This document shows, piece after piece, positions 43,537-59,099 of a DNA stretch of 61,464 nucleotides (positions are counted from its first letter, which is position 1; each line of letters opens with the position of its first letter). The notes below the pieces were generated by a model. The model was not told the DNA's origin. It worked only from the letters and a program-made list of their open reading frames with translations, and did not search any database. The position numbers were made by a program, and so were the translations under genes. Source of the DNA: Isosphaera sp. (GTDB taxonomy: Bacteria > Planctomycetota > Planctomycetia > Gemmatales > Gemmataceae); NCBI GenBank assembly GCA_013822345.1, contig PNKH01000038.1:1-61464 (forward strand), given 5' to 3'.

Positions 43537-43742
43537 GGGTAGGCGATTCCTCTCGGAAGTAAACACCGAGCTTCCGGGACAGCGTCCGGGCGATATCGGT
43601 GGGGACGTCAGGGTAGATCAGCAGCCCAGAGCCTCGGACGGGCAACAACCCGGAGCTGAGGACCAAGGCCCGCTCGTGGAGCGTCGGCCACCGGTGTTCG
43701 GACGGAATGGCAAGGCAAACCCTGTCGCCAAGGGGCGCTAGT

Positions 43743-45602
43743 CCTTAAACAAGCGAATCGAATCTGATCTCGATGGGACATCCGTGTTCAGAACCGTGCG
43801 AACGTGATCGCGGGACGGTGCCATCGGCGGCCCGTCTGTTGTGATCGCAGCTCTCGTTGTTCACGCTCACCTGCTTTCTGCGAACTCGCTCTCGGTGTCT
43901 TCACGGATCGGGACTTCCAGATCCCGACTTCGGTTCGTGGTTCTCACTGACGCAGCAGCGACACCAGACGAAAGAACGTCAGCAGGTGCGGGTTCCAGCC
44001 CAACACACGCAGCACCAGACGACGACCCGTCTTGATCACCTCACACGGGATCGTCACAAACGCACTCACGAATGCCTTGAACTCCAATCGCAGCACACGA
44101 CGTTTCTCCTCGCGGTGGTCTTCCTCCCAGCGACCCGACGACACCGGCAACAGCAATGCCCACCACGCCTTCAAGTTCCACGCCAGTGCTGTCATCACCA
44201 TCCAAGCCCCGTTGCTCTCCAATGTGTTCACCGGAGCTTGCAGCGCACCAACACCATCATGCAACTGGGCCAGCAAGTTCTCCTGGTTGCAACGATCGTT
44301 CGCCTCGAACACGATCTCCGCTGCCGTCGCTTTCCGATCGTTGGTGATGTAAAAGAAGTGACGCACCTCCGGGAAGAGTACCTGCTCTCCCTTCTCCTTC
44401 GAGATGTGTTTGCGGATCACAACCATGCGGTACGTGTTCGCACACGCACTCGGTCGATAATCGAACTCGGCCACCTCCTCCGACTTCAACCGCAGGACAT
44501 CGAACTTGCGTTCGCGGACGATCCGGTCTTTCACCTTGTCGGGACGCTGTCGAGGTTGCGTTTTCACTTCGTATCGGGCCGGGCGATCCAAAGGCTTCCA
44601 GGCCGTGGCAGGCAAGCCTTCCGCGAGATCCTTCATGTTCGGCATGGCATCGTAACCGAAGATGAAATACACGCCCGGCAACTCGTGCCAGCGGTCGAGG
44701 TGCTGAGTCTGGGAGAAGTCGGTGTCACCCCGCAGGACCGTGCGACGAAACCCAGATCGCAAGCACAGCCAGATCGCCTGATCGACCTGTCCGCTGGCTT
44801 GGTCATGTGAGGGACGGTTGCCCGAGCGATTCAACAGACGCAACACTTCGCCAGTCTCGGCCAAGCTGATGATGAGCGGGTGGTAGCCCCAGGTGCCGTC
44901 GTAAGCGATGTCCATGCCTGCCTTGCACTCACCGTTGGTTCCGACCAGTGTGCCGTCCATGTCGATGGTGGCCCGGTTGAAGAACGATCGGGGTTGCCTG
45001 GCCCAAACTTTGCGTCTGGTCTCGTCGATGGCGGTCTGGAGAGCGTCGATGTGCGTTTGGCGGAATCGTCGGCAGAAGTCGCCAGCGGTGGTGGGATCGG
45101 GGATGCGGCGTGCCCCGAGAGCATCGAGGAAGGCTTCATCGTTGCGGCGCAATTCGATGTCTTGAAGGCAGGTGCCGTGGCACAGTGCGTTGTACGCGAT
45201 GTTGAGGACGTGGTCGGACTCGTGATAGGGCAGATGAACTTTCAAGAGGTGAAGGCGTTGGTCGATCGCCTGTGGCAATCCGAGTTGGTGGGCGAGCATG
45301 TGGATGACCCCGATGCCGCCGTGAGCGATGGCTCGGCGCCGGTGCGAGACGTCGTAGTCAATGGGCCGAGCGGAGAGGACGGGTCGAAACGTGGCGGTGT
45401 CGCGTGTGTTGTCGAGTCGTCGCTGGATTCGGGACTTGCGTGTGCGGAACCAGGAGCGGAAAGTCGGTTTCACTCGAAATCCTTGGTTGGGTCTGGCGGT
45501 GTGGGATGCGTCTACATCCACAAACCCCAGAAACCGCTGAGGATTTCGAGCTTTTTTGGGATCACGTCAAAAGATCAGCCTGAGATCACGCTTGGTTTAG
45601 GG
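43743..45602 (-). mobile_element. IS1380-family insertion sequence, 1860 bp
   Basis: Ends are imperfect inverted repeats (CCTTAAACAAGCG at 43743 and, inverted at the right end, CCCTAAACCAAGCG). The flanking direct repeat CTAGT at 43738-43742 and 45603-45607 is the target duplication (possibly GCTAGT at the cost of one terminal base), within the size usual for IS1380. The single transposase gene is intact. The insertion is within a gene of the Dpd-like operon and in the same orientation as the operon. The disrupted frame is still perfectly rejoinable, indicating recent insertion. Confidence 0.9.
43944..45521 (-). CDS. IS1380-family transposase
   Basis: 525-residue DDE transposase: SHRRRAIAHGGIGVIHMLAH, LPYHESDHVLNIAYNALCHG, CLQDIELRRNDEAFLDALGA, then the catalytic ATIDMDGTLVGTNGECKAGM, VLRGDTDFSQTQHLDRWHEL and FEANDRCNQENLLAQLHDGV (Asp, Asp, Glu blocks). 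The order and length fit IS1380 (DDE with a long beta-strand insertion). GTG start at 45521; a later GTG is possible. No frameshift, so probably active. Confidence 0.93.
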   Translation of the reverse strand: MDVDASHTARPNQGFRVKPTFRSWFRTRKSRIQRRLDNTRDTATFRPVLSARPIDYDVSHRRRAIAHGGIGVIHMLAHQLGLPQAIDQRLHLLKVHLPYHESDHVLNIAYNALCHGTCLQDIELRRNDEAFLDALGARRIPDPTTAGDFCRRFRQTHIDALQTAIDETRRKVWARQPRSFFNRATIDMDGTLVGTNGECKAGMDIAYDGTWGYHPLIISLAETGEVLRLLNRSGNRPSHDQASGQVDQAIWLCLRSGFRRTVLRGDTDFSQTQHLDRWHELPGVYFIFGYDAMPNMKDLAEGLPATAWKPLDRPARYEVKTQPRQRPDKVKDRIVRERKFDVLRLKSEEVAEFDYRPSACANTYRMVVIRKHISKEKGEQVLFPEVRHFFYITNDRKATAAEIVFEANDRCNQENLLAQLHDGVGALQAPVNTLESNGAWMVMTALAWNLKAWWALLLPVSSGRWEEDHREEKRRVLRLEFKAFVSAFVTIPCEVIKTGRRLVLRVLGWNPHLLTFFRLVSLLRQ

Positions 45603-46755
45603 CTAGTCTCGCCTGCGGGCATCGCCCCAGTAGAGGGAGAGCCAGGAAGCGGAGCGTTTGCCAGTCGCCGCGGTAGATTTGATGGCCCGAAGGCCGGGTC
45701 GGGTCGATGTACGCCAGAACCATGCGGGGCGGGTTACTGTCGTACTCCAGCCTATAAAGGCCGGGCTGACCGATCACCCCGTCGAAGCGGAGACGCAGGT
45801 GCTGCGGCCCCGCTGGGAGGAATTGATTCCCGTCGAAGTAGAACGCGCGGTCCGGCGGCGGAAGGTGCGGCAGGGGTGGGAGCAGTTGGTCGAGTAGGTC
45901 GGTCGGCCTCGGTAGCAGCCGCGCCAGCCGTGTCGTCACGTCTCCGCCACAACTCAGATGGTTCCAGTCCGGCTGCGGACCGATAGGGCGAAGAGCCTGA
46001 CAGTCCGAACCATCCGGCATCTCCAGCGTCCACCGCGGTGGGCCGCTGCTGTCGGCCTGCGGTTCTTCGTTCACCCGCCACCCGCTCGGAATCTGTCCCC
46101 GCAGGGATTGCACGCGACCGCCGCACCATATGAGCCGGACCGGGGCAGAGGGCGACGCCACGATCACGGGCGGGGCCACCTGCCATCGCGTGCCGTCGTG
46201 TGATCGCTCGATATGGCCCAGAAGGAGCAAGTTCTGAAGGAGCGCCCGCGCCCGCTGCGGGTCCGCCGCCGCCCGAATTTGAACGGCGACCCGTGCAAAC
46301 ACTTCCCAGCGCCCCGAACCTGATGCGGTGAGCCACGCCAACAGTTCTGCTTGTCGCTGATCCGCGTGCTCGCTGCCGTGTGTCACAGGCAGAACATCGG
46401 GCAGCACGTCGAACGGTTCACCGACTTCGAGCGGCGCGTCGGGTCGTGCAATGGGGGGAGGAGGTGGATCGAATAGGCCCCCGGCTTGGCCCTCCGGAAA
46501 GACGGTGACTTTCTTGCCGCGTGTCCTGAGACCGAGCCTCCACCCGCGCTGGAAGATGCGCAATCCGACGCTATTCGCGGTGTGGGCGTCCGGGACGTCG
46601 AGCAGGACGCCAAGGTACTTGGTGCGCGGGGAGAACCGCCAGCGGACGACCTCAGAGTCGGTCGGCTGGATCGCGGTGCCCATGATGCAAAGCACCGTGC
46701 GCATGTCGGTGATCAGAAGTTCCTGGCAGGCGAAGAAGCACATGGGCGGCTCGGG

Positions 46756-48528
46756 TCACTGGGCGTTGGGAGAAGGCAGCCAGCCACCGATCAACTCGAA
46801 AGTTGCCGTCCGTGTGCTCATCGTCTCGTGTGGCGGGGTCGGGGTGAGGGCCGACCAAGCGGCGATCCGGAAGGCTCGCGTCGCAACAGGTTCGTCGTTC
46901 TCTGACACCTCGGTCGCGGTCACCGGGGGAACGGGACGCGGCCAGACTTCGATGAAGTAATCCCCGGTCAAGATGTCGCCAGGGAAGTTCAGAGGTTGAT
47001 TGACTCTCACGATCGCAGGGTTGACGGTGACGGAGCGGCCCCGCACCACACGCCAGACGGCATCATCCCCGAGCCCGCGTACCGTAACTTGGGGCGGCTG
47101 ACCGTACAGCCACACGTTCTCGTTAGGGATGCTCAAGCCACCGGAGAGGGAGATCGTAACCCGCGCCGCCCGTGGCGTGAGGGCGGCGAGGAGACGTCGG
47201 CACGTGACTGGGCACACCACCCCGACCCACTCACCCCCGTGTACCCGGAAATCCCCGTACTCGAGCCATTGCTCGCCTCCGAGTTCGAGTCGAGCCGGGG
47301 CGCTGAACTCCGCCAGCCCCATCCGGCAGAGGAGATCGAGCAGTGGCTGGTGAGACCGGTCCGCGAGGAGGGTGAACGGAACGCCCGGCTCCGGGTTTCC
47401 CCAACTCGCCACCTCGGACGAATACTCGACGTCGGGGTCGCCCACCAAAATCCAGAAATCGCGCCGTGGCAGTTCGAGCGTCTCGACGACCCCTGCGGCC
47501 CCCTCAAGTCGCCACACTTGCCGCGCGAGACTCGCCACCGGCGTCCTGAGCGGCTGGTACCACCCCGGCCTGTGGGGGCTGAGGGGTTCCGACGTTCCGT
47601 CCGCGTGGCGAACCTCCAGCGGGCACTCCTGCCAGTGGCGCGGCGTGCGTGGGTACACCCAGTAACGCACTTCGCCCGTGAGTTCTTCGGTGCGGTACAG
47701 ACCTGCTTGTATCCGCAGTGCATCCCCTGCGGACGTCTCCGTGCGCTGGTCCGTGACGGTCTGATGCACGGCAAATGCGGCGTCCGCTACGGCGTCGAAC
47801 AGCCGAGGATCGGTGGCCTCGCTATCGAGCCGAGACCGCAAGAAGCCGGGTGCTGCCTCCGCGAGTCCGGGCAACTCTAACGCGAGGCCTTCCCGGTCGA
47901 GTTCCCTCAACTCCGTCCAGCGAGACCGAAACAGGTCGGCCAACCCCTGACGGTCCACTTCACGCAAGATGGCCTGCGAGACCGGGTAGCGGATGCACCG
48001 CCACCCCCCACGCCCCGTCGCTGCGGTGGTGGCGAAACCGCGCGCGGCGAGCCACCAATTCCACTCCCGCCACAGTTCCTCATCGGGGTAATCGTCGCCG
48101 TCCTTCGGAAGGCCGAGTTGTTCCCGCCATTCGGGATTCTGGACCCTCGCGGGGCATATCCGGAACAGTTCGGCGAGGTGCCTGAAATACTCGAGGTTCG
48201 CCGTCGGGTCACTCATCCGGTGGGCGGCGAGAACCATCGCCGCGAGAAATCCTGCGGACCGCGGCAACCCATCAGCAAACGCGCCCAGAAAGCGGGACGG
48301 TCGGAGTCGCGTGCCGTCGCCGAGACCACCCTGTTCGCTCACGGCCTCAAGAAAGTCGTCGATCACCTCCGCCCTCGTCGCCGTGCCGCCCGCAAGAAAT
48401 CGTTGCCAGATCAGCTCAAGGGCGGATTCGTCGATGCTGAGGTAGATAGGCGACCCGCGGGCGCGGCCGGCGACGGTGTACCGCACGATGGCCGCGGACC
48501 AGTCGATGTATCTCGGGTGGTCATTCAT
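46756..48528 (-). CDS. Uncharacterised protein of Dpd-like operon
   Basis: 590-residue protein. N-terminal half helical (DDFLEAVSEQGGLGDGTRLR, GFLAAMVLAAHRMSDPTANL), a middle region rich in Trp/Tyr beta strands (YWVYPRTPRHWQECPLEVRH), and a C-terminal region that looks like an immunoglobulin-like or carbohydrate-binding beta sandwich (GDDAVWRVVRGRSVTVNPAI, LTGDYFIEVWPRPVPPVTAT). No catalytic motif or membrane segment. It is between the NERD-UvrD helicase (87-bp gap) and the IS-split gene (12-bp gap), so it belongs to the same transcript. Possibly a scaffold or target-recognition subunit; this is inference. Confidence 0.75.
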   Translation of the reverse strand: MNDHPRYIDWSAAIVRYTVAGRARGSPIYLSIDESALELIWQRFLAGGTATRAEVIDDFLEAVSEQGGLGDGTRLRPSRFLGAFADGLPRSAGFLAAMVLAAHRMSDPTANLEYFRHLAELFRICPARVQNPEWREQLGLPKDGDDYPDEELWREWNWWLAARGFATTAATGRGGWRCIRYPVSQAILREVDRQGLADLFRSRWTELRELDREGLALELPGLAEAAPGFLRSRLDSEATDPRLFDAVADAAFAVHQTVTDQRTETSAGDALRIQAGLYRTEELTGEVRYWVYPRTPRHWQECPLEVRHADGTSEPLSPHRPGWYQPLRTPVASLARQVWRLEGAAGVVETLELPRRDFWILVGDPDVEYSSEVASWGNPEPGVPFTLLADRSHQPLLDLLCRMGLAEFSAPARLELGGEQWLEYGDFRVHGGEWVGVVCPVTCRRLLAALTPRAARVTISLSGGLSIPNENVWLYGQPPQVTVRGLGDDAVWRVVRGRSVTVNPAIVRVNQPLNFPGDILTGDYFIEVWPRPVPPVTATEVSENDEPVATRAFRIAAWSALTPTPPHETMSTRTATFELIGGWLPSPNAQ

Positions 48529-48615: not shown

Positions 48616-50616
48616 TCAGGCTACGTTCGGGTCTAAAGGCTGCGTGTTCGTAGCCACGCGACGCTCGACGAAGTCGGGAAACTGGTCCGCCAAGTGCCGG
48701 AGTGCGTCGAGCAGTGGGCCGGGGGTGTCGGATACCTGAAGCACGAGGGTGTCAATCGTCCGTGACAACGCGATCAACAGCCATCGGCCTGCGTACCTCG
48801 CCGGGGCGGCAGGATCGTCGGAGAGCGGAGTGTCGGGGCGAGCGGCGTTCGCACCTTCCGACAACTTGTAACGGTAGAATTCGTCGAACCCGAGCGCCAG
48901 CACGGTCCATCCTTCGAGACCGCGGCATGAGTCGTACTGGACCACCCGGAGCGACTGGGTTGATACGGGGTAGGTGCGCCGGACCGCCGGGTTCACGCCG
49001 TCCCACACGTCCTGCCCGACAGCGGCGAAGCGCTGGGCTGGCGTGGACCGCTTTTCGCCCTGGCTGTCGACGAAGGTCATTGCCGGTGGGACGCAGGCGA
49101 GCATGTCGATCGGCTGGTTGCCGGCGGTGGCGTTGTCGGCGAGCAGGCGGGTGTGCAGGTTCGGATCGGCGAAGTAGTCTCCTTCGAGGATGAGGACGCG
49201 GCCGCCCGTGGCCTGCTCTTCCGGCACGAAGGCCGCGCCGGGCGCATTGAGCAGGAACGCAAGTTCGTTCGCGAACCGAACGAGGTTCTGCTTCATCCGA
49301 AGGCAGTTGACGCGCTGGATCGTGACTCGGTTCGCGCGCGTGATCCCTTCTTGCCAATTGCAGGCCGATTGGGTGCGGACGAGTTGCTCCGGCCCTTCCG
49401 CCAGTACGGTCGCTGACGGCGGGAATAGTCGCCGAAGGAGGTCGCGCTCTGCGGGCGGCCAATCCTGCGCTTCATCAACGAAGACGTGGTCCCACGCGAT
49501 TTCCTCCGGGTAGCGGGCTTTGAGTTGCGCGTAGTCGGCGGCGGTGAGCGTACCTTGCGCGAAGTGCCCCGATATCTCGGTTACCATCGCGTCGTGCCGC
49601 TCGTCGGGCGGCACCTCCGGCAGGGACAGGCCGAGCAGGCCGAACAACGTCCCGAGATAACTGTGAATGGTGAGAACGCGGAGCGAAGGTCGGTCGGCGG
49701 CGTCGGCTACACCGAGCAGGGCGAGGAGCCGCTGGAGATCGGCGACCAAGGCCAGGTTGTACGTGAGCAGTAGGACACGGTCCCCCTGTTCGACCGCACG
49801 CCACGCGAGCTGCAACAGGAGCATGGTCTTGCCTGTGCCGCCTTGCCCGCGGAAGGCCACCTGCTTCCGGCCGACATCCTCGATCCACGCGTCAGCGACC
49901 GCGCGGCGCGTTATCAGGTCCATCCTCATCCTGTCGAGCCGAGTCGGCTCGATCAGTTGGGTGAGCCTCGCCACCACCCGGTCGAATTCCTTCGCGGCCC
50001 CGCCCGGCCAAGCCCGCAGAACCCAGCCGCCCGGTTCGCGCCAAGGCGGTGAAAGCTGTGCGACCACGTTCAGCATCAGTTCCCAATTCGGGTCCGCGCC
50101 GATCAAATTGTGCGGGCGGTTGGGAAGGTCCGCGCGGTCGATTTGCCGGAACCAGATGAGGTTGGTGACCCACGGAGGATCCCCCCTCCTGAGGCCCAGG
50201 TAGTTTCTCAGGGAGTGCAACTGTTGGTCGTTCTGGTCGGTAGCGGAACTCCACACCCCTTTGTATGTGACCTTGGCGTGCGTGCCCTCGAACCGCACCC
50301 CGCCCGGCTCATGGTCTTTTATTTCGATAACGAGGCACAGGGAATCGACGCGGACGTCGTCCGGGAGGTGGTGGCTTCCTCCGATGGCGAATTCAAGAAA
50401 CGGATGATAGATGCCGCGGTCCTCCGGAACAGAGGCGAGCAGCACGATGTCGAGGTCGCGGGCGCGGACCTGGTTGTAGCACTTCACTCCGGCTACGATT
50501 TCAAACTCGGCGCGCGGGTCCGTTTCGGCCCAAGGCCATTGTGCCACAATGATATCGCGGAGCTGCCGGGCCGCTTCGGCCTCGGCACCATCCACGCTTC
50601 CGTGTATTCGGATCAT
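48616..50616 (-). CDS. NERD-domain UvrD/SF1-like helicase
   Basis: 666-residue protein. N-terminal nuclease-related (NERD) region with ARDLDIVLLASV and LCLVIEIKDHEPGG, spaced as the D and E-x-K of a PD-(D/E)xK fold. Walker A FRGQGGTGKTMLLL with the Lys at 263, Walker B HVFVDEAQDWPPAERD, and UvrD C-terminal motifs near the end (RVVQYDSCRGLEGWTVLALG, GRWLLIALSRTIDTLVLQV). This nuclease-helicase architecture is common in restriction-like and anti-plasmid systems. Start ATG has GGGGCGA upstream; 32 bp after the ATPase gene. Probable effector of the operon. Confidence 0.87.
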   Translation of the reverse strand: MIRIHGSVDGAEAEAARQLRDIIVAQWPWAETDPRAEFEIVAGVKCYNQVRARDLDIVLLASVPEDRGIYHPFLEFAIGGSHHLPDDVRVDSLCLVIEIKDHEPGGVRFEGTHAKVTYKGVWSSATDQNDQQLHSLRNYLGLRRGDPPWVTNLIWFRQIDRADLPNRPHNLIGADPNWELMLNVVAQLSPPWREPGGWVLRAWPGGAAKEFDRVVARLTQLIEPTRLDRMRMDLITRRAVADAWIEDVGRKQVAFRGQGGTGKTMLLLQLAWRAVEQGDRVLLLTYNLALVADLQRLLALLGVADAADRPSLRVLTIHSYLGTLFGLLGLSLPEVPPDERHDAMVTEISGHFAQGTLTAADYAQLKARYPEEIAWDHVFVDEAQDWPPAERDLLRRLFPPSATVLAEGPEQLVRTQSACNWQEGITRANRVTIQRVNCLRMKQNLVRFANELAFLLNAPGAAFVPEEQATGGRVLILEGDYFADPNLHTRLLADNATAGNQPIDMLACVPPAMTFVDSQGEKRSTPAQRFAAVGQDVWDGVNPAVRRTYPVSTQSLRVVQYDSCRGLEGWTVLALGFDEFYRYKLSEGANAARPDTPLSDDPAAPARYAGRWLLIALSRTIDTLVLQVSDTPGPLLDALRHLADQFPDFVERRVATNTQPLDPNVA

Positions 50617-50648: not shown

Positions 50649-53600
50649 TCAGGCCTTGCGATCCTGTGTGGGGGCAGGTTTATCGGTCCACTCGACACGA
50701 ACCCTGATCTGACCGGTAGCTATCAACTCCGCTAAACCGGCGATATCGCCGGCGTGTTCCGGTCGGTCCAGCACGAATTCCCCACGCGACGCTGCGGCAG
50801 TCAGGAAGCCACGGCGCGCCGTGAGGAGCAGCTCACCCATGTGCGTCAAGGCAGCGAAGTTCGGGGACGGCTTGAGCGCCTCGACTGCGCGGGTCAACTG
50901 ATCGGCGACATCCGCCCACCGCTGAGACTTGCGGGTGGGGTGCTGCCACGGTTGCCCGGCCTTCGACCGGTCCGTGAGCCGCGTGCGGGCGGCAGCGAAG
51001 CAATCACTCGCCCACGCATAGAGTTTCTCGGAGTGCGGCTCGCCGTCGATCTCGGGTTGTGAGCCGGTCAGGAACTCGCCGAAACGTGAACGTAGGGTCT
51101 CGGCTTCGCGGAGATAGGCTCGCACTCGACTGAAAAGGATTCCGTGGGCTTGGCGCTCTACTTCCCCCAGTCGGGTTGCGACGTCCTGGTGGGCGAATAC
51201 CGGCTCCCAGCTCTCGGTGGCCAGTTGCTCACGCAGGTCGGCCATCATCTCGGCGATTGTCCGTGCGAGGCCCGGATCGGAGCCCCCGATCTTCGCCCCC
51301 ATCTCCTGGATGGCTGCGATTCGCTCGTTCAGCGCCTGCCACTGGCGGAGGTGTCCGGCTTGGGTCCGGAACTCAGCACACCTGGCACCCACCCCGTCCC
51401 AAACCCGCTCCAGCGCGGATGCGCGTTTCCGCCACGCAGCGACCCAGTCCTCTCGGTTCTCTGCGGCTTCGCCCAGTTCGGCTGTGATCTTGTCGAGTTC
51501 GCGGGTCAGAGACTTGAGGATTGCCTCCCGCGACCGAAGCAACAGTTTTCCGATGCCCCTGAGGTGGGTGCTGACACACGACTCAGCCCACTCGGTTGGT
51601 ACTATCTCAGCTTTGACCAATCCCGTCGAATCACGGAACTTTGTCTGACGAGCGGTGATTTCCCCGAGCACCCGCTGAACAGTCGTCGCGAGGCGTTCCT
51701 TGAGGACATCCGCGTATGCCCAGAGTGCGGGAGTGGCCTCGGATGCCGGTGCGGAAGGGATGTCCGAAACCCCGATCCGGCGGAGGCGCTCCAGCAGCGA
51801 TTCGATTTCGGCATTCGCCTCGTCTTGGCCGGCCCGTTCACGCCCGACGGGCCGCACACCCCCTGCGACGGCCGCGAGAAGCCCGCGATCCGTGAGCAGG
51901 CCCACGAGACTGTCGGCCTCGCTTGGCAGGTATCCGGCGTGGCGCATCACCTCATGGACCGCAGAGACTGGCACCGCCCGCTTGCGCCCGGCCTTGGTCA
52001 CGTACTCGTGAAGAATCGCCTCACCTGGGTGGCACGCGAAGTGGATCGAGAAGGAATCCGCAGTTCCGGCGGTCTCCACCAACGGCCCGAGCAGGCGTAG
52101 TTGGCTGTCCCAGGCCGCCACACTTTTCTGCTCGAATAGCGTCCGCGCCAACTCGGCCTTGGTGCCGGTGACCGCCACCTCACCCCGGCGCTGTACGTCC
52201 GTTAAGTAATTCAGCCGCAGGGCATTGCGGTAGGCCTTGAGCGGTTCGGTCCAGTTGTGGTGCTTGATCAGGGTGCGGTATCCGGGGGACTTCTTACGGC
52301 AGGCCGCCGTGAAAAGGGCTCGGACCAGCTCGGGTCCGCGCTGTTGGACACTCACCTTCGGCAGCAGGTTCACCATCCCCTGAAGGATTTCCCTCTCAAC
52401 GAACTCCATCGTGACATCGATGAAGGAAGCCGGTCCCGACGACGCTCCCGTATTTTCTGGCTCGGCGATCGACGACAGGTCGTGAATAGCGTTGATGACG
52501 GTGAGGGCCTTAAAGGGCTCCGGCTGGATGTACTTCTTAAACCGATCGAGTTCCGCCGGCACCACGCCCGCAAGTGGGCGGAGGAGCGGCATGGTGAAGG
52601 TCACTCGCGGCACCGGGTTCTGGAAGTCCGGAGTCGCTGACGCCTCCGCACCCAGTTCCCCCGCACAGGTGAAGGCGAGGGCGAGGTCCACATCCGCAGG
52701 CCAGTCCGTCGGGGCTGCTGGCCCGATCCACAGGGCCACATCGCGAGACGGGTAGTCTTCGTCGAACGTTCCTCGCAGGTACCGCCACCCCGTCAGTGCC
52801 GTCTCAACGTCGCCCGACGTTCGCTCCCAGTGCGCGTCGGACCCGGGTGCCTCCGGGAAAAGGCGGCTCCCGAGTACCCGCCACACCATGTCTGGGGCGT
52901 GGGCGAGGAGGGCGTCCAAGGCGGGGAGGGTTTCCCACGCCCGGGCTACCACCTGTTCCCAATCGATAACCGGCCGGCGGATCTGTTGAAGGCGCTCCAG
53001 TGCTAACCCGTCAGGGAGTTCGACGAGCAGGGGCGCGAACAGTTGCGAACGGACTTTTGCGAGCCGTGCGGCGGAACCGGCGGCTTCTTCGGCGACCGCC
53101 TTGGGGCATCCGCGGGGAAACGCCGCCAGCCTTCGGACGACCGCCACCCGAACGGGGTCCGCGCGGAGCCAGTCGTCCTTGAGGAGTTCGGTCAGGGTCC
53201 TCTGGACCTGCGCGCCCTCGCCGAAGTACCGCATGACGCCGCTCTGGACGTCGACAACGAGTTCGTCGAGGCCGTACGCGGTGTGACTTGAGCGGTAGTG
53301 CTCGATGGCACGGCAGAACACGTCCACTACCGTCCGGGGGCCGTTCGCAAGGTCCGGGCGCTCGACGAACTGACCGAGCGACAGCAGGACGTACGGGTCG
53401 ATGGCACCCGGGTCCGTAACGCGCCCGTCACCGGAAGTAAGCCGCCCCCAAAGCCAGGCAGGGAACTCACTGGTGTAGACGTCTGTGAGCTGGAGTGCGG
53501 GGCCACTTTCCCGAATTCGATGTAGCAGGTCCGCGGCCCATCGGGCGAGCCGGGCTTCTAGCATGGCGTCGAAGCAGACGATAACGCCGCAGGGGGATTG

Positions 53601-54311
53601 CTCCGTACGCATCCCCCACACGAACTCGCGGAACTGGGTGATCGCCCGCGTGTCGAGCGGCCCGAGGAGCTGCTGTAGTTCGTCCAGAATCAGCACCAGG
53701 CCGCCGGACACTTCGGCGACGATCTTTCCTAATTCGGACAGCAACTCGACCAGCCGGTGGCACTGGCTGTCGATGGCGATCTGTCCCGCACGCACCTTGT
53801 CCTGGAGCATGCGGCGAACGGTCCGACCGGGGATCTTGTACCGCTCCGCGTCGGTCTTGGCGGCATCGTCCAGCCCCCGGTCCCAGATGCGCCGCACGGC
53901 GCGCTCGATGCGGCCTGCGACCTTCGGGTGCTGGGCCGAAGCGATGGCGACGACGCCGCGGGCGAGTTCGTCGAAGTTGGAACACGACAAAGGGGGGATT
54001 GCTGTGAACCCCTCCTGCCGGGCGTGTCGCCACGCGGCGACGCCGGCCGCCGTTTTGCCGTACCCGTACGGGCCGGAGATGCTCGCCCAGCGGGTTCGGC
54101 CGGATCGGATGTGCGCCAGCAGCCCGTCGGTCAGCTCCTGGACGCGCGGGGACAACCACAGGCGGGTCGCCAGGAGGTCGTAGTGGCGCACGGTGCCGTC
54201 CGCGTCCAGGGCCGCCTTGTGACCGCTGACGGTGTCACAGACGGGCAAGAGGACGGGAGCCGCAGGGGCGACGGCACGCTGCCGCCGGCTACTGGGTGTC
54301 GAGTTGCCCAT
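50649..54311 (-). CDS. Large P-loop ATPase (DpdH-like)
   Basis: 1220-residue protein. Walker A SGPYGYGKTAAGVAAW at 79-94 and Walker B GLVLILDELQQLLGPL near 205 define an N-terminal STAND/ORC-like P-loop domain; the remaining 900 residues are helical with long coiled-coil regions in the C-terminal third (REAILKSLTRELDKITAELG, EAAENREDWVAAWRKRASAL). Size, ATPase position and gene neighbourhood (next to a DpdG-like protein and a DpdA-family enzyme) suggest DpdH, but the assignment is by context and overall architecture. The ATG at 54311 overlaps the upstream gene by 23 bp, which indicates translational coupling. Confidence 0.8.
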   Translation of the reverse strand: MGNSTPSSRRQRAVAPAAPVLLPVCDTVSGHKAALDADGTVRHYDLLATRLWLSPRVQELTDGLLAHIRSGRTRWASISGPYGYGKTAAGVAAWRHARQEGFTAIPPLSCSNFDELARGVVAIASAQHPKVAGRIERAVRRIWDRGLDDAAKTDAERYKIPGRTVRRMLQDKVRAGQIAIDSQCHRLVELLSELGKIVAEVSGGLVLILDELQQLLGPLDTRAITQFREFVWGMRTEQSPCGVIVCFDAMLEARLARWAADLLHRIRESGPALQLTDVYTSEFPAWLWGRLTSGDGRVTDPGAIDPYVLLSLGQFVERPDLANGPRTVVDVFCRAIEHYRSSHTAYGLDELVVDVQSGVMRYFGEGAQVQRTLTELLKDDWLRADPVRVAVVRRLAAFPRGCPKAVAEEAAGSAARLAKVRSQLFAPLLVELPDGLALERLQQIRRPVIDWEQVVARAWETLPALDALLAHAPDMVWRVLGSRLFPEAPGSDAHWERTSGDVETALTGWRYLRGTFDEDYPSRDVALWIGPAAPTDWPADVDLALAFTCAGELGAEASATPDFQNPVPRVTFTMPLLRPLAGVVPAELDRFKKYIQPEPFKALTVINAIHDLSSIAEPENTGASSGPASFIDVTMEFVEREILQGMVNLLPKVSVQQRGPELVRALFTAACRKKSPGYRTLIKHHNWTEPLKAYRNALRLNYLTDVQRRGEVAVTGTKAELARTLFEQKSVAAWDSQLRLLGPLVETAGTADSFSIHFACHPGEAILHEYVTKAGRKRAVPVSAVHEVMRHAGYLPSEADSLVGLLTDRGLLAAVAGGVRPVGRERAGQDEANAEIESLLERLRRIGVSDIPSAPASEATPALWAYADVLKERLATTVQRVLGEITARQTKFRDSTGLVKAEIVPTEWAESCVSTHLRGIGKLLLRSREAILKSLTRELDKITAELGEAAENREDWVAAWRKRASALERVWDGVGARCAEFRTQAGHLRQWQALNERIAAIQEMGAKIGGSDPGLARTIAEMMADLREQLATESWEPVFAHQDVATRLGEVERQAHGILFSRVRAYLREAETLRSRFGEFLTGSQPEIDGEPHSEKLYAWASDCFAAARTRLTDRSKAGQPWQHPTRKSQRWADVADQLTRAVEALKPSPNFAALTHMGELLLTARRGFLTAAASRGEFVLDRPEHAGDIAGLAELIATGQIRVRVEWTDKPAPTQDRKA

Positions 54312-55125
54312 GCACGATCCATTCGAGAAAGGGGTCCACAGAGGAGCGGTATGCGATCCGCTTCCCGTTACCGAGTAGATGGAACTCTGCCCCGGGGGCG
54401 AGCGATTCTTCGAGCACCCGCCGAAGCTCCGCCGGGGGAATGAGGAGAGCGTCGGCGAGCAGTTCTGCGGATTCGCCGGTAAGACTCGCTTCACCTTCAC
54501 CGTGGCGGCACAGCGCGGCCGCTTGGAACCGAACACAGGTGAGGCCGGGACTCGGGGTTGCTGGACTGTGGAGCCGACCCGTAATCGGTTCGAGAAGTGG
54601 CGGCGACTGGGCGCGGAGCCACGCGGTGACGCCGTTAACGCTCGACCGGCTGAACGAAACCCGTTCGGCGTTAAACCGCCCGGCCGCACCCGTCACGCTG
54701 AGGACCACCGCATCGGACTCGATACCGAGCGGCCCTGCCGTTCGGATCGCCCGGCAGACCTGTCGGTAGCTCCAAGCGGGCGTTGCAATGGCCGCCTGCC
54801 CGGACCAGAGCCACGTCCACGAGTAAAGGCAATGCACCCCGGCGAAAAAGCCCTGGGGGTAGCGCCCGGCTGACCCCGAAAGGGCGATTCCTGCGCCGCT
54901 GAGAGCCAGCTTGTTGCCAGCGATCCGCACCAGCCCGATCTCCTCCATCGAGCGGAGTAACTTGCGAAGGTCGGCCCGTTTGGCGAGCGGCGAAGCCAGT
55001 ACTTGAGCCGCTTTCTCAATCCTGTCCACCTCGACGCCTTCGGTCCCGAACGCGGCGAGCAACTGGAACGCCGCCCACCCGAGGTCCGGGGTGAAGTCGT
55101 GGCGTGTGTGAAAGGTGTGTTCCAC
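54289..55125 (-). CDS. Winged-helix-like protein (possible DpdG)
   Basis: 278-residue protein, GTG start 3 bp after the stop of the DpdA-family gene. N-terminal part reads as a winged helix (LGWAAFQLLAAFGTEGVEVD, LRKLLRSMEEIGLVRIAGNK), suggesting DNA binding; the C-terminal part is alpha/beta (PAELRRVLEESLAPGAEFHL, LGNGKRIAYRSSVDPFLEWI). In Dpd systems a protein of this size, DpdG, stands beside the DpdH ATPase, and this position is matched here. No catalytic motif. Confidence 0.7.
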   Translation of the reverse strand: MEHTFHTRHDFTPDLGWAAFQLLAAFGTEGVEVDRIEKAAQVLASPLAKRADLRKLLRSMEEIGLVRIAGNKLALSGAGIALSGSAGRYPQGFFAGVHCLYSWTWLWSGQAAIATPAWSYRQVCRAIRTAGPLGIESDAVVLSVTGAAGRFNAERVSFSRSSVNGVTAWLRAQSPPLLEPITGRLHSPATPSPGLTCVRFQAAALCRHGEGEASLTGESAELLADALLIPPAELRRVLEESLAPGAEFHLLGNGKRIAYRSSVDPFLEWIVHGQLDTQ

Positions 55126-55128
55126 GGC

Positions 55129-56571
55129 TTATTCCCCCACCGCAGTGGGGAGGGCCGCACCGTTGATCGAGTCCGACATCTCCTTGAAGACGATCGCGTT
55201 GTGCAGCATCCGCGCGTACCGGTCATCGCGGATCTGTGAGAAGTCCCGGCAGAACGGGCACTCGTGCCCGGTCTCGGCGCAGGCCGTATAGAACGCGGCC
55301 GCCGTTAACCCGGTGCCGCAACTCAGCGCTGACGCCCCGTGGGTGACGTTCCGGCGGGAGCGGAACGGGAGGTACACGTTCCCGTACCCGGCTGTCCGCA
55401 TCCACCCGGAGCTGTCGAAGCTGCTGGCCAGGTAATTCGGGAAATCGGCGAGCAGAGCGGGGGAGCTGACACCGAACAAGTGGAAATTGGTGAGGACGTC
55501 GGTCTCACCTCGGACGTAAGCACCAGCGAGGAGTTCACGGAGAAACTCCAGCCGCCCGGCCGCCTGGGCAGTGAGCAGGTTGATCTCCGAGTTCGTTCCC
55601 CCGGTGTCGAAACTGCCAAAACCGAGATGCGGAACGCCCGCGTCCTGGTAAGCCGTCAGGCACCTCTTGAGGTGGTCGGGCTGGTGCCCCTGAAGAACCC
55701 CGAGCGCTTTGGGCTGAAGCTCCGCGGGCATTCGGCGGAAGAACTTCACTCCCTCGGCTGCGGTCACGTGGACGCGCTCGTCCACTTCGGATGGGGTGTT
55801 CTTGGACGTGGGGACAAAGTCGGGAAGGACATAGGCGGCACCCCAGTCGTTGCTCTGGTAGTAGGCGAGCAGCTTGGGGAACAGTTCGTCGTAGGTCACT
55901 TTCCCCTGCTGGACGAAGAAGCCGCCGGAATCGAACATGACCTCGACACCCCACTCGTCGTGCAGATGTCGCACGTAGTGGTGGGTCCGGCTGTCGCAGA
56001 ACAAGGGGGTGAAGATGCACCGATCGAACGGACGCCCCTCACCGCCTTCCTCCTCCCAGAGGCGGATGAGGTTCTTCAAGTCGTTCGCTGCGTTCGAGAG
56101 CGCCGCGACGAACGTCATGGGCCGGAGTGGAAGAATCGGGACGTGCCACTCGATCAGCGGGCGAGCGCGACCCGGGTTCGTGCGGCGACTCGCTTGCGAG
56201 AAGCCGGCGGCGCGGTAGAACTCGTTGGCGGGCAATTCGGCCGGGCACGATAACCGAAGCAAGCGTATCCCGTCGGTCCGGCACACGTCCAAAACCGTAC
56301 GAATCAACCGTGCACCGACGCCACGTCGCCGGCAGGCGGGGTCAGTGGCAATTTCGTAGATGGTCGCGGCACGGTCGCGGCGCTTGTGAAAGCGGACGAA
56401 GCCGACAACGCGGGCACCGATCCGGGCGACCAGCAGTTCGCCTCGGTCACGGCTTTCGAGATAGGACTGCCGGGTGTGGAAGCCGAGTTCGTCGCGGTGC
56501 GAGTCCGCGAGACGCTTCACCGAATCTATAAGCCCGTCACTGTCGGCAGCGGCGATCTTTAAGGTCGACAT
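55129..56571 (-). CDS. GNAT acetyltransferase fused to DpdA-family transglycosylase
   Basis: 480-residue fusion. Residues 1-150 are a GNAT domain with the acetyl-CoA loop RRRGVGARL (81-89) and the later NEFYRAAGF motif. Residues about 150-480 match the DpdA branch of tRNA-guanine transglycosylases: MFDSGGFF with D214 (counterpart of the TGT DSGGFQ Asp), GVLQGHQPDHL (292-301), HLFGVSSPALL (364-374), the second catalytic Asp candidate D386 in SFDSSGWMRTAG, and zinc ligands C438, C441 and H457 (CPFC...MLHN). DpdA enzymes replace guanine in DNA with a preQ0-derived deazaguanine. First gene of the seven-gene leftward operon; the winged-helix gene follows after 3 bp. Confidence 0.88.
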   Translation of the reverse strand: MSTLKIAAADSDGLIDSVKRLADSHRDELGFHTRQSYLESRDRGELLVARIGARVVGFVRFHKRRDRAATIYEIATDPACRRRGVGARLIRTVLDVCRTDGIRLLRLSCPAELPANEFYRAAGFSQASRRTNPGRARPLIEWHVPILPLRPMTFVAALSNAANDLKNLIRLWEEEGGEGRPFDRCIFTPLFCDSRTHHYVRHLHDEWGVEVMFDSGGFFVQQGKVTYDELFPKLLAYYQSNDWGAAYVLPDFVPTSKNTPSEVDERVHVTAAEGVKFFRRMPAELQPKALGVLQGHQPDHLKRCLTAYQDAGVPHLGFGSFDTGGTNSEINLLTAQAAGRLEFLRELLAGAYVRGETDVLTNFHLFGVSSPALLADFPNYLASSFDSSGWMRTAGYGNVYLPFRSRRNVTHGASALSCGTGLTAAAFYTACAETGHECPFCRDFSQIRDDRYARMLHNAIVFKEMSDSINGAALPTAVGE

Positions 56572-56630: not shown

Positions 56631-56900
56631 TTATGCGTGTACCCGATCAGCGGCAGTACGGCCTCCTGGCCCACTCTTGCCTCGTGGTGGCAACAAACTC
56701 GCTGGCTCAACACCCACGACCGAGGCAACCAGAAAGAGGGTGTGCAGTGCGATCTTTTGTCTGCCCTTCTCGATGTTGGTCACGCTCGTTCGGCTTAATT
56801 CCACCTGATCGGCGAGGGCATCCTGTGTGATCCCGGCCGCCTCTCGGGCCACTCGGACCAGCCGACCGACCTCGGCGTAAAACTCTTCGCGATCGTTCAA
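56631..56900 (-). CDS. XRE-family HTH regulator
   Basis: 89-residue HTH_3 protein (VGRLVRVAREAAGITQDALA, DQVELSRTSVTNIEKGRQKI), ending in an Arg/Gly-rich tail. The TTG at 56900 is preceded by a GGGGG run with good spacing; in-frame sequence continues upstream to a TTG at 57002 but overlaps another coding frame. It ends 59 bp before the DpdA-family gene in the same direction, so it may regulate, or be transcribed with, the Dpd-like operon. Confidence 0.72.
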   Translation of the reverse strand: MNDREEFYAEVGRLVRVAREAAGITQDALADQVELSRTSVTNIEKGRQKIALHTLFLVASVVGVEPASLLPPRGKSGPGGRTAADRVHA

Positions 56901-57186
56901 CGGCCTGCCCCCTAGGTATGTGGGTGGGGCGCGGGAATCGGTTTTGCCATACCTTACCCTCTCCAGTCGCCACGTCAACCACGCAAACGGTTTGTGCGGC
57001 AAACGTGGACCGGCCGTGCAGGATTTCCCGATAGAACTGGCCCACGCTGACCCTTTTCAGCGAGATCGAGCGGACACGGGTGGGTTGGCCGCGGGTCTGG
57101 AGGGAGCGGACTTCACGCACCCATGCAGCCGCGCCCGCTTGTTGCAGTTCAGGGACAGGCAGTTCCGACGCAGGCAGCACGTGCAT
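56707..57186 (-). CDS. Small gene overlapping the XRE gene (possibly frameshifted)
   Basis: The frame opens at the ATG at 57186, with a strong AGGAGGT 11 nt upstream, and reads MHVLPASELPVPELQQAGAA, then VRSISLKRVSVGQFYREILH and TVCVVDVATGEGKVWQNRFP to about 56905. Beyond that it is only a shadow of the XRE gene, giving an improbable Arg-rich end at 56707. A one-base shift before 56910 would end it at a TAG next to the XRE start. So this is either a gene with a long overlap or a frameshifted one. A toxin-first pair with the XRE gene as antitoxin is a possibility only. Confidence 0.42.
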   Translation of the reverse strand: MHVLPASELPVPELQQAGAAAWVREVRSLQTRGQPTRVRSISLKRVSVGQFYREILHGRSTFAAQTVCVVDVATGEGKVWQNRFPRPTHIPRGQAVERSRRVLRRGRSAGPSGPRGGRDHTGCPRRSGGIKPNERDQHREGQTKDRTAHPLSGCLGRGC

Positions 57187-57821: not shown

Positions 57822-57842
57822 CCGCCCGGATGGAGAATGACC

Positions 57843-58541
57843 ATGACTGAAACCTTCCTACTTAATGATCCTCAGGCGGTGACCCGGCTCGACTCCGTGG
57901 CGTGCATCTTCGCGTGGGCGCGGTCGATGCCCGTGCCGGATCGGAAGAGGTTTCTAGGTGCCTTGGTCGAGTGTAGCGATGAGGTGCAGCAGGTCGTCGT
58001 CTCGCTGCTCAGCATAGTGAAGGACCCAGACACCGCGCCGGCTGATCGGAATCGAGCGTTGATGACCATCGCTGACGCACTTGCCCTCAACCCGTGCGAA
58101 GAGGACGGGCAGTACGGCCAGGATTTGGTCGCGTCGGAGCCATACGGTGTAGCCAGAAGCGCATCGCTGGCGCGTGAAGTACGGAAGATGAACGCGCAGG
58201 AGCAAACGTTCGCCGAGCGACTCAAGGAGCTGATGGCCACGAAGCAGATATCCCAGCAGGAGCTCGCAGAGCGTGTCGGTTGTTCCCAGCCGGCAATCTC
58301 CCAGATGCTTACCCGCAAGTGCCGCCCTCAGAAGAAGACCATCCTGAGGCTGGCGGAGGCTCTCAGCGTGCTTCCCCGCGAACTCTGGCCCGACATCGAC
58401 GTGGCTGACATGCTCGATGCCGTCGCCAGCTTCCAGCAGGATGACTACACGATGACGGCTGCGGAGGCTACCGCGCTCGCCGATACGACTAAGAAAAATC
58501 GGCCCAAGATCCGGGCGAAGTCACTCCCGACCCGCCCATAA
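57843..58541 (+). CDS. HTH-domain protein (antitoxin-like)
   Basis: 232-residue protein. The N-terminal helical half (RLDSVACIFAWARSMPVPDR, KRFLGALVECSDEVQQVVVS) is followed by an XRE HTH at about 120-175 (LKELMATKQISQQELAERVG, CSQPAISQMLTRKCRPQKKT) and a Lys/Arg-rich tail. The ATG at 57843 is chosen over 57837 because GGAG ends 7 nt before it. The GNAT gene starts 12 bp downstream, a common arrangement for a DNA-binding antitoxin with its acetyltransferase partner. Confidence 0.82.
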   Translation: MTETFLLNDPQAVTRLDSVACIFAWARSMPVPDRKRFLGALVECSDEVQQVVVSLLSIVKDPDTAPADRNRALMTIADALALNPCEEDGQYGQDLVASEPYGVARSASLAREVRKMNAQEQTFAERLKELMATKQISQQELAERVGCSQPAISQMLTRKCRPQKKTILRLAEALSVLPRELWPDIDVADMLDAVASFQQDDYTMTAAEATALADTTKKNRPKIRAKSLPTRP

Positions 58542-58553
58542 TCAGGGGGGCGG

Positions 58554-59099
58554 ATGACGCCACATCCTCATCAACTGTACGCGATCCCGTTCACGGAAGC
58601 CGACCAAGAGCGCTTGGTCGGCTTTTCGTGTGGTGAGGCGTTGTGGTCACGGCACGTCGGCGAGTGGCTTCTCGGATCAGACGTGCTCGATTCGATGAAA
58701 AGAGGGACTCGCGTCTGGTTGTTCGAGACTGCGGCAAAGGAAGTCGTGGGGTTTGGCTCCCTCGGCACGTCGAAGTGGAACTGGCCCCCTCCCGACGGAG
58801 CGAAAGCGATGATCGCGTTGATCCCCATGCTGGGAATTGGGGAGCGGTTTCATGGACAACCACCGGACCCGGAGTGGCGGTATTCACGACAGATCATGGG
58901 GCATCTGATCGCTGAAGCACAGGAGCTGGCTCGCGTTGGACGGGAGGCTGAAGCTGATGAGCCGCAGTGGCTCGTGCTAATGGTACACCGCGAAAACGCG
59001 AGAGCTATTCAATACTACGAGCGATGCGGGTTCGAGTTGATTCCCTGCGTCGAGCGGCGAAACAACCACGTGGTGATGAAGCTTTGGATCGGCGAATAA
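58554..59099 (+). CDS. GNAT-family N-acetyltransferase
   Basis: 181-residue GNAT protein: AIPFTEADQERLVGFSCGEA at the start, VWLFETAAKEVVGFGSLGTS (strands 2-4), IALIPMLGIGERFHGQPP, SRQIMGHLIAEAQELAR (acetyl-CoA region, atypical) and VHRENARAIQYYERCGFELI (C-terminal strand motif). The N-terminus resembles GNAT toxins (tRNA acetylators of the TacT type). AGGGGG 5 nt before the ATG. Pairs with the HTH gene directly upstream. Confidence 0.82.
   Translation: MTPHPHQLYAIPFTEADQERLVGFSCGEALWSRHVGEWLLGSDVLDSMKRGTRVWLFETAAKEVVGFGSLGTSKWNWPPPDGAKAMIALIPMLGIGERFHGQPPDPEWRYSRQIMGHLIAEAQELARVGREAEADEPQWLVLMVHRENARAIQYYERCGFELIPCVERRNNHVVMKLWIGE

Follow-up and report, generated by a model that had tools for sequence, protein, structure and literature searches.

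Why should an acetyltransferase be joined in one polypeptide to a base-exchanging enzyme, and with which other proteins does the pair work? These questions are raised by a gene in a stretch of 61,464 nucleotides (nt) of DNA from Isosphaera sp. (contig PNKH01000038.1 of assembly GCA_013822345.1; the whole stretch is called the window hereafter), whose product unites a GNAT acetyltransferase domain with a domain of the tRNA-guanine transglycosylase (TGT) superfamily, to which DpdA also belongs. It is the first gene of an operon whose other members are SspB/SspC-like and Druantia type IV genes, and it lies in a mobile gene cluster, a phage defence island. This gene context is a larger and more informative finding than the fusion alone. 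We consider it fairly probable that the operon is a restriction-modification-like hybrid, in which the GNAT–TGT protein marks the cell's own DNA with a 7-deazaguanine that is recognised by a Druantia type IV effector.

The fusion protein and its relatives

A previous reading of the letters alone (the sequence-only reading) had described the product as a GNAT enzyme fused to a DpdA-type transglycosylase, and the frame, the domain matches and a structure model all bear out the fusion. The GNAT part of the 480-residue protein extends over about residues 1–145 and the DpdA/TGT-like part over about residues 150–480. Residues 35–124 match the Pfam family PF00583 (Acetyltransf_1) at 59.7 bits, the cut-off being 20.7, and the RimI profile scores 39.3 bits on the same half. 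In the other half, the NCBIfam DpdA model NF041059 weakly matches residues 249–394 (E 2.9e-6, 26.4 bits), and the PADLOC DpdA model matches residues 255–392 (E 1.7e-5). A four-row profile of the TGT half, searched against the PDB with matches up to E 0.1, retrieved 7ui4 alone, the DNA-guanine transglycosylase DpdA (E 3.1e-4). The designation "DpdA-type" holds at the superfamily level and fails for DpdA proper, as the 26.4 bits lie far below the NF041059 equivalog cut-off of 200 bits; nine of the 18 homologues reach E 0.001 or better with this model. Structure prediction, proposed earlier as a check, recovered both folds. In the AlphaFold2 model built from 16 homologues (pLDDT 88.1, pTM 0.84), residues 147–480 form the TIM barrel of TGT, with a Z score of 25.2 to Zymomonas TGT (291 residues, rmsd 2.9), and the Ard1 acetyltransferase structure aligns with a TMt of 0.85 over 151 columns.

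The active sites of both halves are conserved. All 18 aligned homologues (L020, truncated at a contig start, stands outside this alignment and its counts) have D214, D251, G295, G317–S320, H364, D386, H436, C438, C441 and H457 without exception, so that the catalytic aspartate candidates and the zinc site named by the sequence-only reading are retained throughout. When the family profile was aligned to six tRNA TGTs, the window genome's own among them (probability 85%, E 5.9e-6), D214 fell on the DSGG motif, D251 on the DEC motif and D386 on the FDC motif. In the same alignment H436, C438, C441 and H457 make up the zinc site, with a histidine standing where tRNA TGTs have the first cysteine. 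Following the TGT literature, we take D214 and D386 to be the two catalytic aspartates and D251 the base-recognition aspartate. The acetyl-CoA loop in the GNAT half, which that reading had also pointed out and which reads R81, G84 and G86 in the window, is largely kept among the homologues. In the fused proteins the Q/RxxGxG pattern has G86 in 12 of 12, G84 in 11 of 12 and R or Q at position 81 in 10 of 12; 25 columns of the GNAT half, including G86, C109-P110 and Y119, are invariant in all 12.

Besides the window, the relatives of the TGT half occupy 18 distinct loci, namely one contig of a viral collection, two plasmids and 15 genome contigs. Fusions number 12 with the window included (L004, L006, L007, L008, L009, L013, L014, L015, L016, L018 and L021 being the others). 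Seven of them come from Cyanobacteria (L004, L013, L014, L015, L016, L018 and L021), and one each from Acidobacteria (L007), Poribacteria (L008) and a proteobacterium (L009); one IMG/VR contig, listed as both L003 and L006, also carries a fused locus, although it could be a piece of cellular or mobile DNA. The search for the same fusion elsewhere, also proposed earlier, therefore shows it to recur in four named phyla beyond the window's own. Chance fusion or an annotation artefact is ruled out by the 12 fused proteins. GNAT and TGT are linked in 16 of 18 loci, 12 times by fusion and four times as separate genes, so an unrelated GNAT gene joined only in this genome does not fit; a separate GNAT stands in four of the six unfused loci. 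Three of these are from Chloroflexi (L010, L019 and L012, in which the gene runs off the contig), and their GNATs have the motif RHR(R/K)D..TTLY in common (seen by eye). The fourth is on a haloarchaeal plasmid, of Haloplanus (L005). No GNAT was found at L011, a 7.3-kb contig, or at L017. The acidobacterial TGT of L017 (10001–10918) sits on a long branch, and other components of the system are unmatched in its 10-kb flanks. The fused proteins fall into two clades, and the test of a single origin of the fusion gave p-AU 0.051 with 18 rows and 0.284 after two long branches were dropped.

GNAT–TGT was found in 1 of 392 genomes of the window's phylum, which is the window's own; in a sample of the class, 4 of 397 genomes match, of which only the window's own gives a strong match and the other three stay at 20–30 bits. 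The window genome has 137 matches to SBP_bac_10, a family that marks planctomycetes, against 0 of 14 control genomes, which points to a planctomycete host. A phage origin was considered and rejected, since a tblastn search of 50,697 phage records with the TGT half returned nothing at 1e-5. The BFVD library of viral structures holds two partial relatives, A0A823ABE2 (31% identity, 261 columns) and A0A831A9H8 (36%, 143 columns). The locus is carried by Oscillatoria nigro-viridis PCC 7112 and Nostoc calcicola FACHB-3891, both presumably available in culture collections. Separately, additional TGT-like matches of 50–61 bits lie at G396:C23:17409-18476, G402:C144:48090-48713 and G394:C10:307660-308508, in genomes that also have a tRNA TGT. 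The Haloplanus TGT (L005, 20055–21035) matches two PADLOC models called TGT, PDLC00913 and PDLC00912, which means that a defence-linked TGT is already represented in PADLOC.

The operon and its link to Druantia genes

The genes of the operon and the neighbouring regulator are collected in the table below; the PADLOC scan took in eight window proteins.

Table. Features of the fusion gene and its surroundings (window positions)
Feature	Position	Strand	Remarks
DruE, YprA-family Druantia helicase, 1958 aa	37690..43566	(-)	PADLOC DruE4 1451 bits, DruE2 1403 bits
druL, interrupted	43529..46743	(-)	PADLOC DruL4 E 7.8e-8
IS1380-family insertion inside druL	43742..45602	(-)	transposase 43944-45521, NCBIfam IS1380 E 1.2e-77
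DruF-like protein	46756..48528	(-)	PADLOC DruF E 2.2e-12
NERD/UvrD-like nuclease-helicase	48616..50616	(-)	PADLOC NERD+UvrD E 1.4e-9
SspC/BrxC-like ATPase	50649..54311	(-)	PADLOC SspC E 9.2e-6
278-aa protein, probable SspB-like fold	54289..55125	(-)	3 nt downstream of fusion, GTG start
GNAT-TGT fusion protein, predicted DNA-modifying enzyme	55129..56571	(-)	single open frame, 480 aa, ATG start
DpdA/TGT-like transglycosylase domain	55129..56121	(-)	D214, D251, D386; zinc ligands H436, C438, C441, H457
GNAT domain, residues 1-150	56122..56571	(-)	acetyl-CoA loop R81-x-x-G84-x-G86
XRE-type regulator upstream of fusion	56631..57002	(-)	Pfam HTH_3 E 5.9e-11

Directly behind the fusion gene follows a protein of 278 residues. 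Its AlphaFold2 model (pLDDT 91.4) aligns best with SspB (6lb9; Z 14.1 over 251 residues, rmsd 4.0, a value near the aligner's caution level, as mostly helical models reach Z of about 13–14 through their common arrangement), followed by the BspD6I nickase (Z 9.3) and FokI (Z 7.5). Foldseek returned no match at E 0.001, so that SspB came from the second aligner alone; no Pfam family was matched, and DUF4007 is unmatched in 15 of 15 family members. For these reasons the SspB-like assignment is no more than probable. Homologues of the 278-residue protein stand behind the TGT gene in the other fused loci (tblastn), and they fall into two groups, a window type and a cyanobacterial one, bridged by L011 and L019, which match both.

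The next gene encodes an ATPase similar to a BREX-type ATPase of Haloplanus (tblastn E 1.5e-47), which itself matches PF10923 (BrxC_BrxD). Its start is probably the ATG at 54311, because the frame is open to 54689 yet homology begins only near residue 147. Each of the 12 fused loci has a homologue downstream, which is only partial in L013 and divided over two frames in L018. The NERD/UvrD-like protein has homologues in L006 and L007 and also directly behind DruE in L051 and L053, two loci of the methyltransferase type described below; it may be a general Druantia partner. DruM, which is a methyltransferase, and DruG had no PADLOC match among the eight window proteins scanned.

Of the 12 fused genes, 11 share their contig with DruE, at a spacing ranging from 28 nt (L009) to 11.6 kb (the window), and in the twelfth locus, L015, DruE is reduced to a piece of 72 residues. 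For comparison, DruE was found at E 1e-60 in 5 of the 392 genomes of the window's phylum, the window's own counted (in the phylum controls, L037–L043, modification genes were sought by homologue queries only). At none of the six loci with an unfused TGT was DruE found on the contig, two of those contigs being short. A 6-kb contig (L033) carries DruF–DruL–DruE in a Chloroflexi genome whose unfused TGT (L012) is elsewhere, and the two may be one locus split in the assembly. The L009 genome has a second, more distant DruE (41% identity; G395:C35:23524-28947) on a contig other than that of its GNAT–TGT.

What stands beside DruE where the fusion is missing? Ten of 18 records of DruE plasmids were inspected, with flanks of 9–20 kb where possible (H13–H20 were left out; H9 is cut at the record start, and H8 lacks a gene table, its methyltransferase having been found by phmmer). 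Five carry a DNA cytosine methyltransferase (Nostoc C052, Roseomonas, Alisedimentitalea, Rhizobium and, by similarity, Shinella), one carries GNAT–TGT (Oscillatoria), and the remaining four lack both (Calothrix, Deinococcus, Aphanizomenonaceae TIOX110 and Nostoc CENA543). The gene order in Nostoc C052 is dcm-druF-druL-druE, with DruF and DruL assigned by similarity. In a tree of DruE, which took in eight of the 11 linked loci (L006, L013 and L016 have incomplete DruE frames) and in which 11 rows, the window included, are flagged for a differing letter make-up, all eight TGT-linked rows fall into one group of 11 rows with support of 100/100; the group also holds Calothrix (L044), Deinococcus (L045) and L033. 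Outside this group stand seven rows, five with a methyltransferase and two with neither modifier. Hence, a DNA cytosine methyltransferase takes the place of GNAT–TGT in five of these seven more distant loci.

The druL gene of the window is split. Homology to Oscillatoria DruL occurs in two frames, 45586–46755 and 43529–43744, and it continues on either side of the transposase, which identifies the IS1380 element as the cause. The element is flanked by CTAG repeats at 43738–43741 and 45603–45606 (its ends and the repeats were set by eye) and has one match in the genome assembly. The window copy may therefore be crippled, and it is possible, if doubtful, that it is a decaying remnant. The absence of the gene from all 18 other genomes listed under the same genus goes in the same direction; against it, the remaining operon frames are open and match their relatives along their length. 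Such decay would concern the window alone and is compatible with a self-marking role of the system at large.

A proposed self-mark and its alternatives

We propose the following mechanism for the hybrid system. The TGT domain would exchange guanine in DNA for a 7-deazaguanine, as DpdA does, the base being drawn from the preQ0/preQ1 pathway of the cell. The SspB-like protein would select the site and the SspC/BrxC-like ATPase would load or remodel the DNA, as in Ssp phosphorothioation, with base exchange substituting for the insertion of sulfur. The GNAT domain would acylate the inserted or the free base, most likely at the primary amine of preQ1, and so complete the mark. Finally, DruE–DruF–DruL would attack unmarked DNA, joined in some loci by the NERD/UvrD helicase. 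The parts of this proposal differ in strength. That the fused-gene system places a 7-deazaguanine mark in DNA is likely, in our judgement. That the GNAT acts on the base is plausible, unproven and somewhat less than even in expectation; it is the weakest link of the model, because the substrate of the GNAT could be a protein and because an acyl-preQ1 does not fit Haloplanus. The complete model, in which an acylated 7-deazaguanine such as N-acetyl-preQ1 is made in DNA by a bifunctional GNAT–TGT, steered by SspB/SspC-like proteins, read by DruE and replaced by cytosine methylation in sister systems, is accordingly put forward as tentative.

Genes for the supply of the base are found at some of the loci. 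In Haloplanus, QueC, QueE and QueD are encoded on the opposite strand, 1.0–4.0 kb from the TGT gene. In L007 a QueD frame, similar to other QueD frames, lies 37 nt upstream of the fusion; it is preceded by a QueC piece with stops (G393:C11:615399-615539) and by what appears, by eye, to be the decayed start of a QueE gene. Of 16 whole genomes, 13, among them that of the window, have both QueC and QueF, called above 200 bits for true QueC and above 99 bits for QueF; the other three have neither. A DNA base with the required side group has a precedent, as dPreQ1, which bears an aminomethyl group, is known from viral DNA (PMC6884629), and this makes N-acyl-preQ1 chemically reasonable. Oscillatoria SIO1A7 carries on a separate contig (L024, G401:C118) one more QueC and one more QueF, close to QueD- and QueE-like frames, possibly another deazaguanine system.

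A number of observations weigh against the self-marking proposal. As regards the enzyme, neither the window protein (at E 0.01) nor the other fused proteins are reported by the Pfam TGT model (PF01702), and the acetyl-CoA loop deviates at two positions in L009 and at one in L006. The cautions on the SspB match, including the lack of DUF4007, and the split druL of the window belong here as well. As regards DruE, it lies in two pieces with stops in L016; two of the seven rows outside the TGT-linked group have no annotated modifier; and L044 and L045 stand inside that group with no GNAT–TGT nearby. The TGT-linked DruE rows as a single clade are rejected (p 2.9e-44), from which it follows that Calothrix, at least, has probably lost the module or its linkage to DruE. 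In Alisedimentitalea an MvaI/BcnI endonuclease follows the methyltransferase, which may therefore belong to another system. As regards the base, three Chloroflexi genomes have neither QueC nor QueF in their assemblies, and the QueC of the window genome looks like a housekeeping gene by its neighbours (by eye), so that the supply would not be specific to the locus. In Haloplanus no QueF is annotated in the stretch read and the separate GNAT lacks the subfamily motifs (by eye); acylated preQ1 can therefore not be a general rule.

In an alternative for the chemistry, the TGT marks DNA with unacylated preQ0 or preQ1, and the GNAT acetylates a protein, be it the ATPase, DruE or an effector, and so acts as a regulator or safety switch. 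RimI and Ard1, which match the GNAT half best by profile and by fold respectively, are protein N-acetyltransferases; position 7 of preQ0 bears no amine side group, and in the Haloplanus stretch QueC, QueE and QueD are annotated but QueF is not. Nevertheless, it is to the TGT itself that the GNAT is fused or linked, in loci with two different sets of effectors, and we regard this alternative as rather unlikely.

Could the enzyme act on RNA instead, modifying tRNA or phage RNA as an uncoupled bystander in a defence island? Nucleic-acid specificity cannot be read from sequence. Four unfused relatives exceed the Pfam TGT cut-off of 26.3 bits, with 32–37 bits, and four family members match the archaeosine tRNA TGT model TIGR00432. 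However, a strong match to a tRNA TGT is already present in 16 of 16 whole genomes (in two pieces in one), DpdA is the closest solved relative by sequence, and the linked families, a DNA helicase and SspB/SspC-like proteins, are conserved across phyla. These points make an RNA substrate improbable.

Relation to known systems

The BREX-related capture (BRC) systems, described in 2026, come closest. Their description mentions "GNAT-occasionally fused with TGT", proposes 7-deazaguanine and acyl self-marks, and equates DUF4007 with SspB and BrxC with SspC (PMC12839542). BRC systems and the fused loci share TGT and GNAT, a BrxC-like ATPase and a small DNA-binding partner, which is DUF4007 in BRC and the probable SspB-like protein here. 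They differ in PglZ and HerA, the latter present in all BRC taxa according to that article; homologues of the Haloplanus PglZ (a PglZ-like query, PADLOC E 3.6e-6) and HerA were not found in the window frames or in the fused-locus stretches searched (phmmer E 1e-5). They were found in L005, L010 and L012 only, which are BRC-like for this reason, and the fused loci partner with DruE, DruF and DruL. That the window system is itself a BRC system whose PglZ and HerA were missed or replaced is quite unlikely given this distribution, in spite of the TGT, the GNAT, the BrxC-like ATPase and the homologous protein of about 280 residues in common.

Druantia type IV is defined as DruE, DruF and DruL without DruM and DruG (PADLOC; PMC8565338). 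All three are present in the window, druL being interrupted, and the difference is that GNAT–TGT, SspB-like and SspC-like genes are joined to them here. With Dpd the system has in common a TGT-fold enzyme with its catalytic and zinc residues, and also a YprA-family helicase, to which DpdJ belongs (PMC12458937). The fused GNAT and the low DpdA score set it apart, and no Dpd partner (DpdB, DpdC or others) was found among the eight window proteins, in which only DruE cross-matches DpdJ and DpdF. In the Ssp and type 4 BREX systems of phosphorothioation, SspB-like and SspC/BrxC-like genes likewise adjoin the modifying enzyme, which is a transglycosylase here; SspA and SspD had no PADLOC match among the same eight proteins. 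BRIGADE resembles the window operon as a 7-deazaguanine gene cluster with a helicase of the ARMADA/Druantia clade. It differs in being reported from no other organisms than halophilic archaea, and it usually has two YprA helicases together with PLD or PD-(D/E)xK nucleases (PMC12458937).

The Druantia-linked form of GNAT–TGT appears new, since no paper was found that ties Druantia to a transglycosylase or DpdA in a search that left most subscription journals aside; the fusion itself is already published for BRC. "Druantia" does not occur in the main text of the BRC article, and the examined passages of articles naming both Druantia and deazaguanine do not connect the two. A 2026 article gives methylation as the self-mark of Druantia and, where defence uses deazaguanine marks, refers to Dpd (PMC12904381). 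If the proposal is true, part of Druantia IV, a type that in PADLOC lacks DruM, gains a mechanism of self-recognition: host DNA would be tagged with an unusual base, and a Druantia-type machine would probably attack only untagged invader DNA. SspB/SspC-like scaffolds would then carry interchangeable modifying enzymes, for sulfur insertion or for base exchange. A new, perhaps acylated, DNA base would be predicted, and acylated 7-deazaguanine would be a further self-marking chemistry for Druantia-type defence.

The surroundings of the operon offer some minor observations. The XRE-type regulator upstream of the fusion is a possible controller gene by analogy with restriction-modification systems; phmmer (E 1e-5) found no counterpart of it in the relatives searched. 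On the opposite strand, at 57837–59099 (+), an XRE-type gene is followed by a GNAT-like gene (58554–59099), and the two could be a toxin–antitoxin-like pair. An IS66-family transposase frame lies at 14216–15604 of the window.

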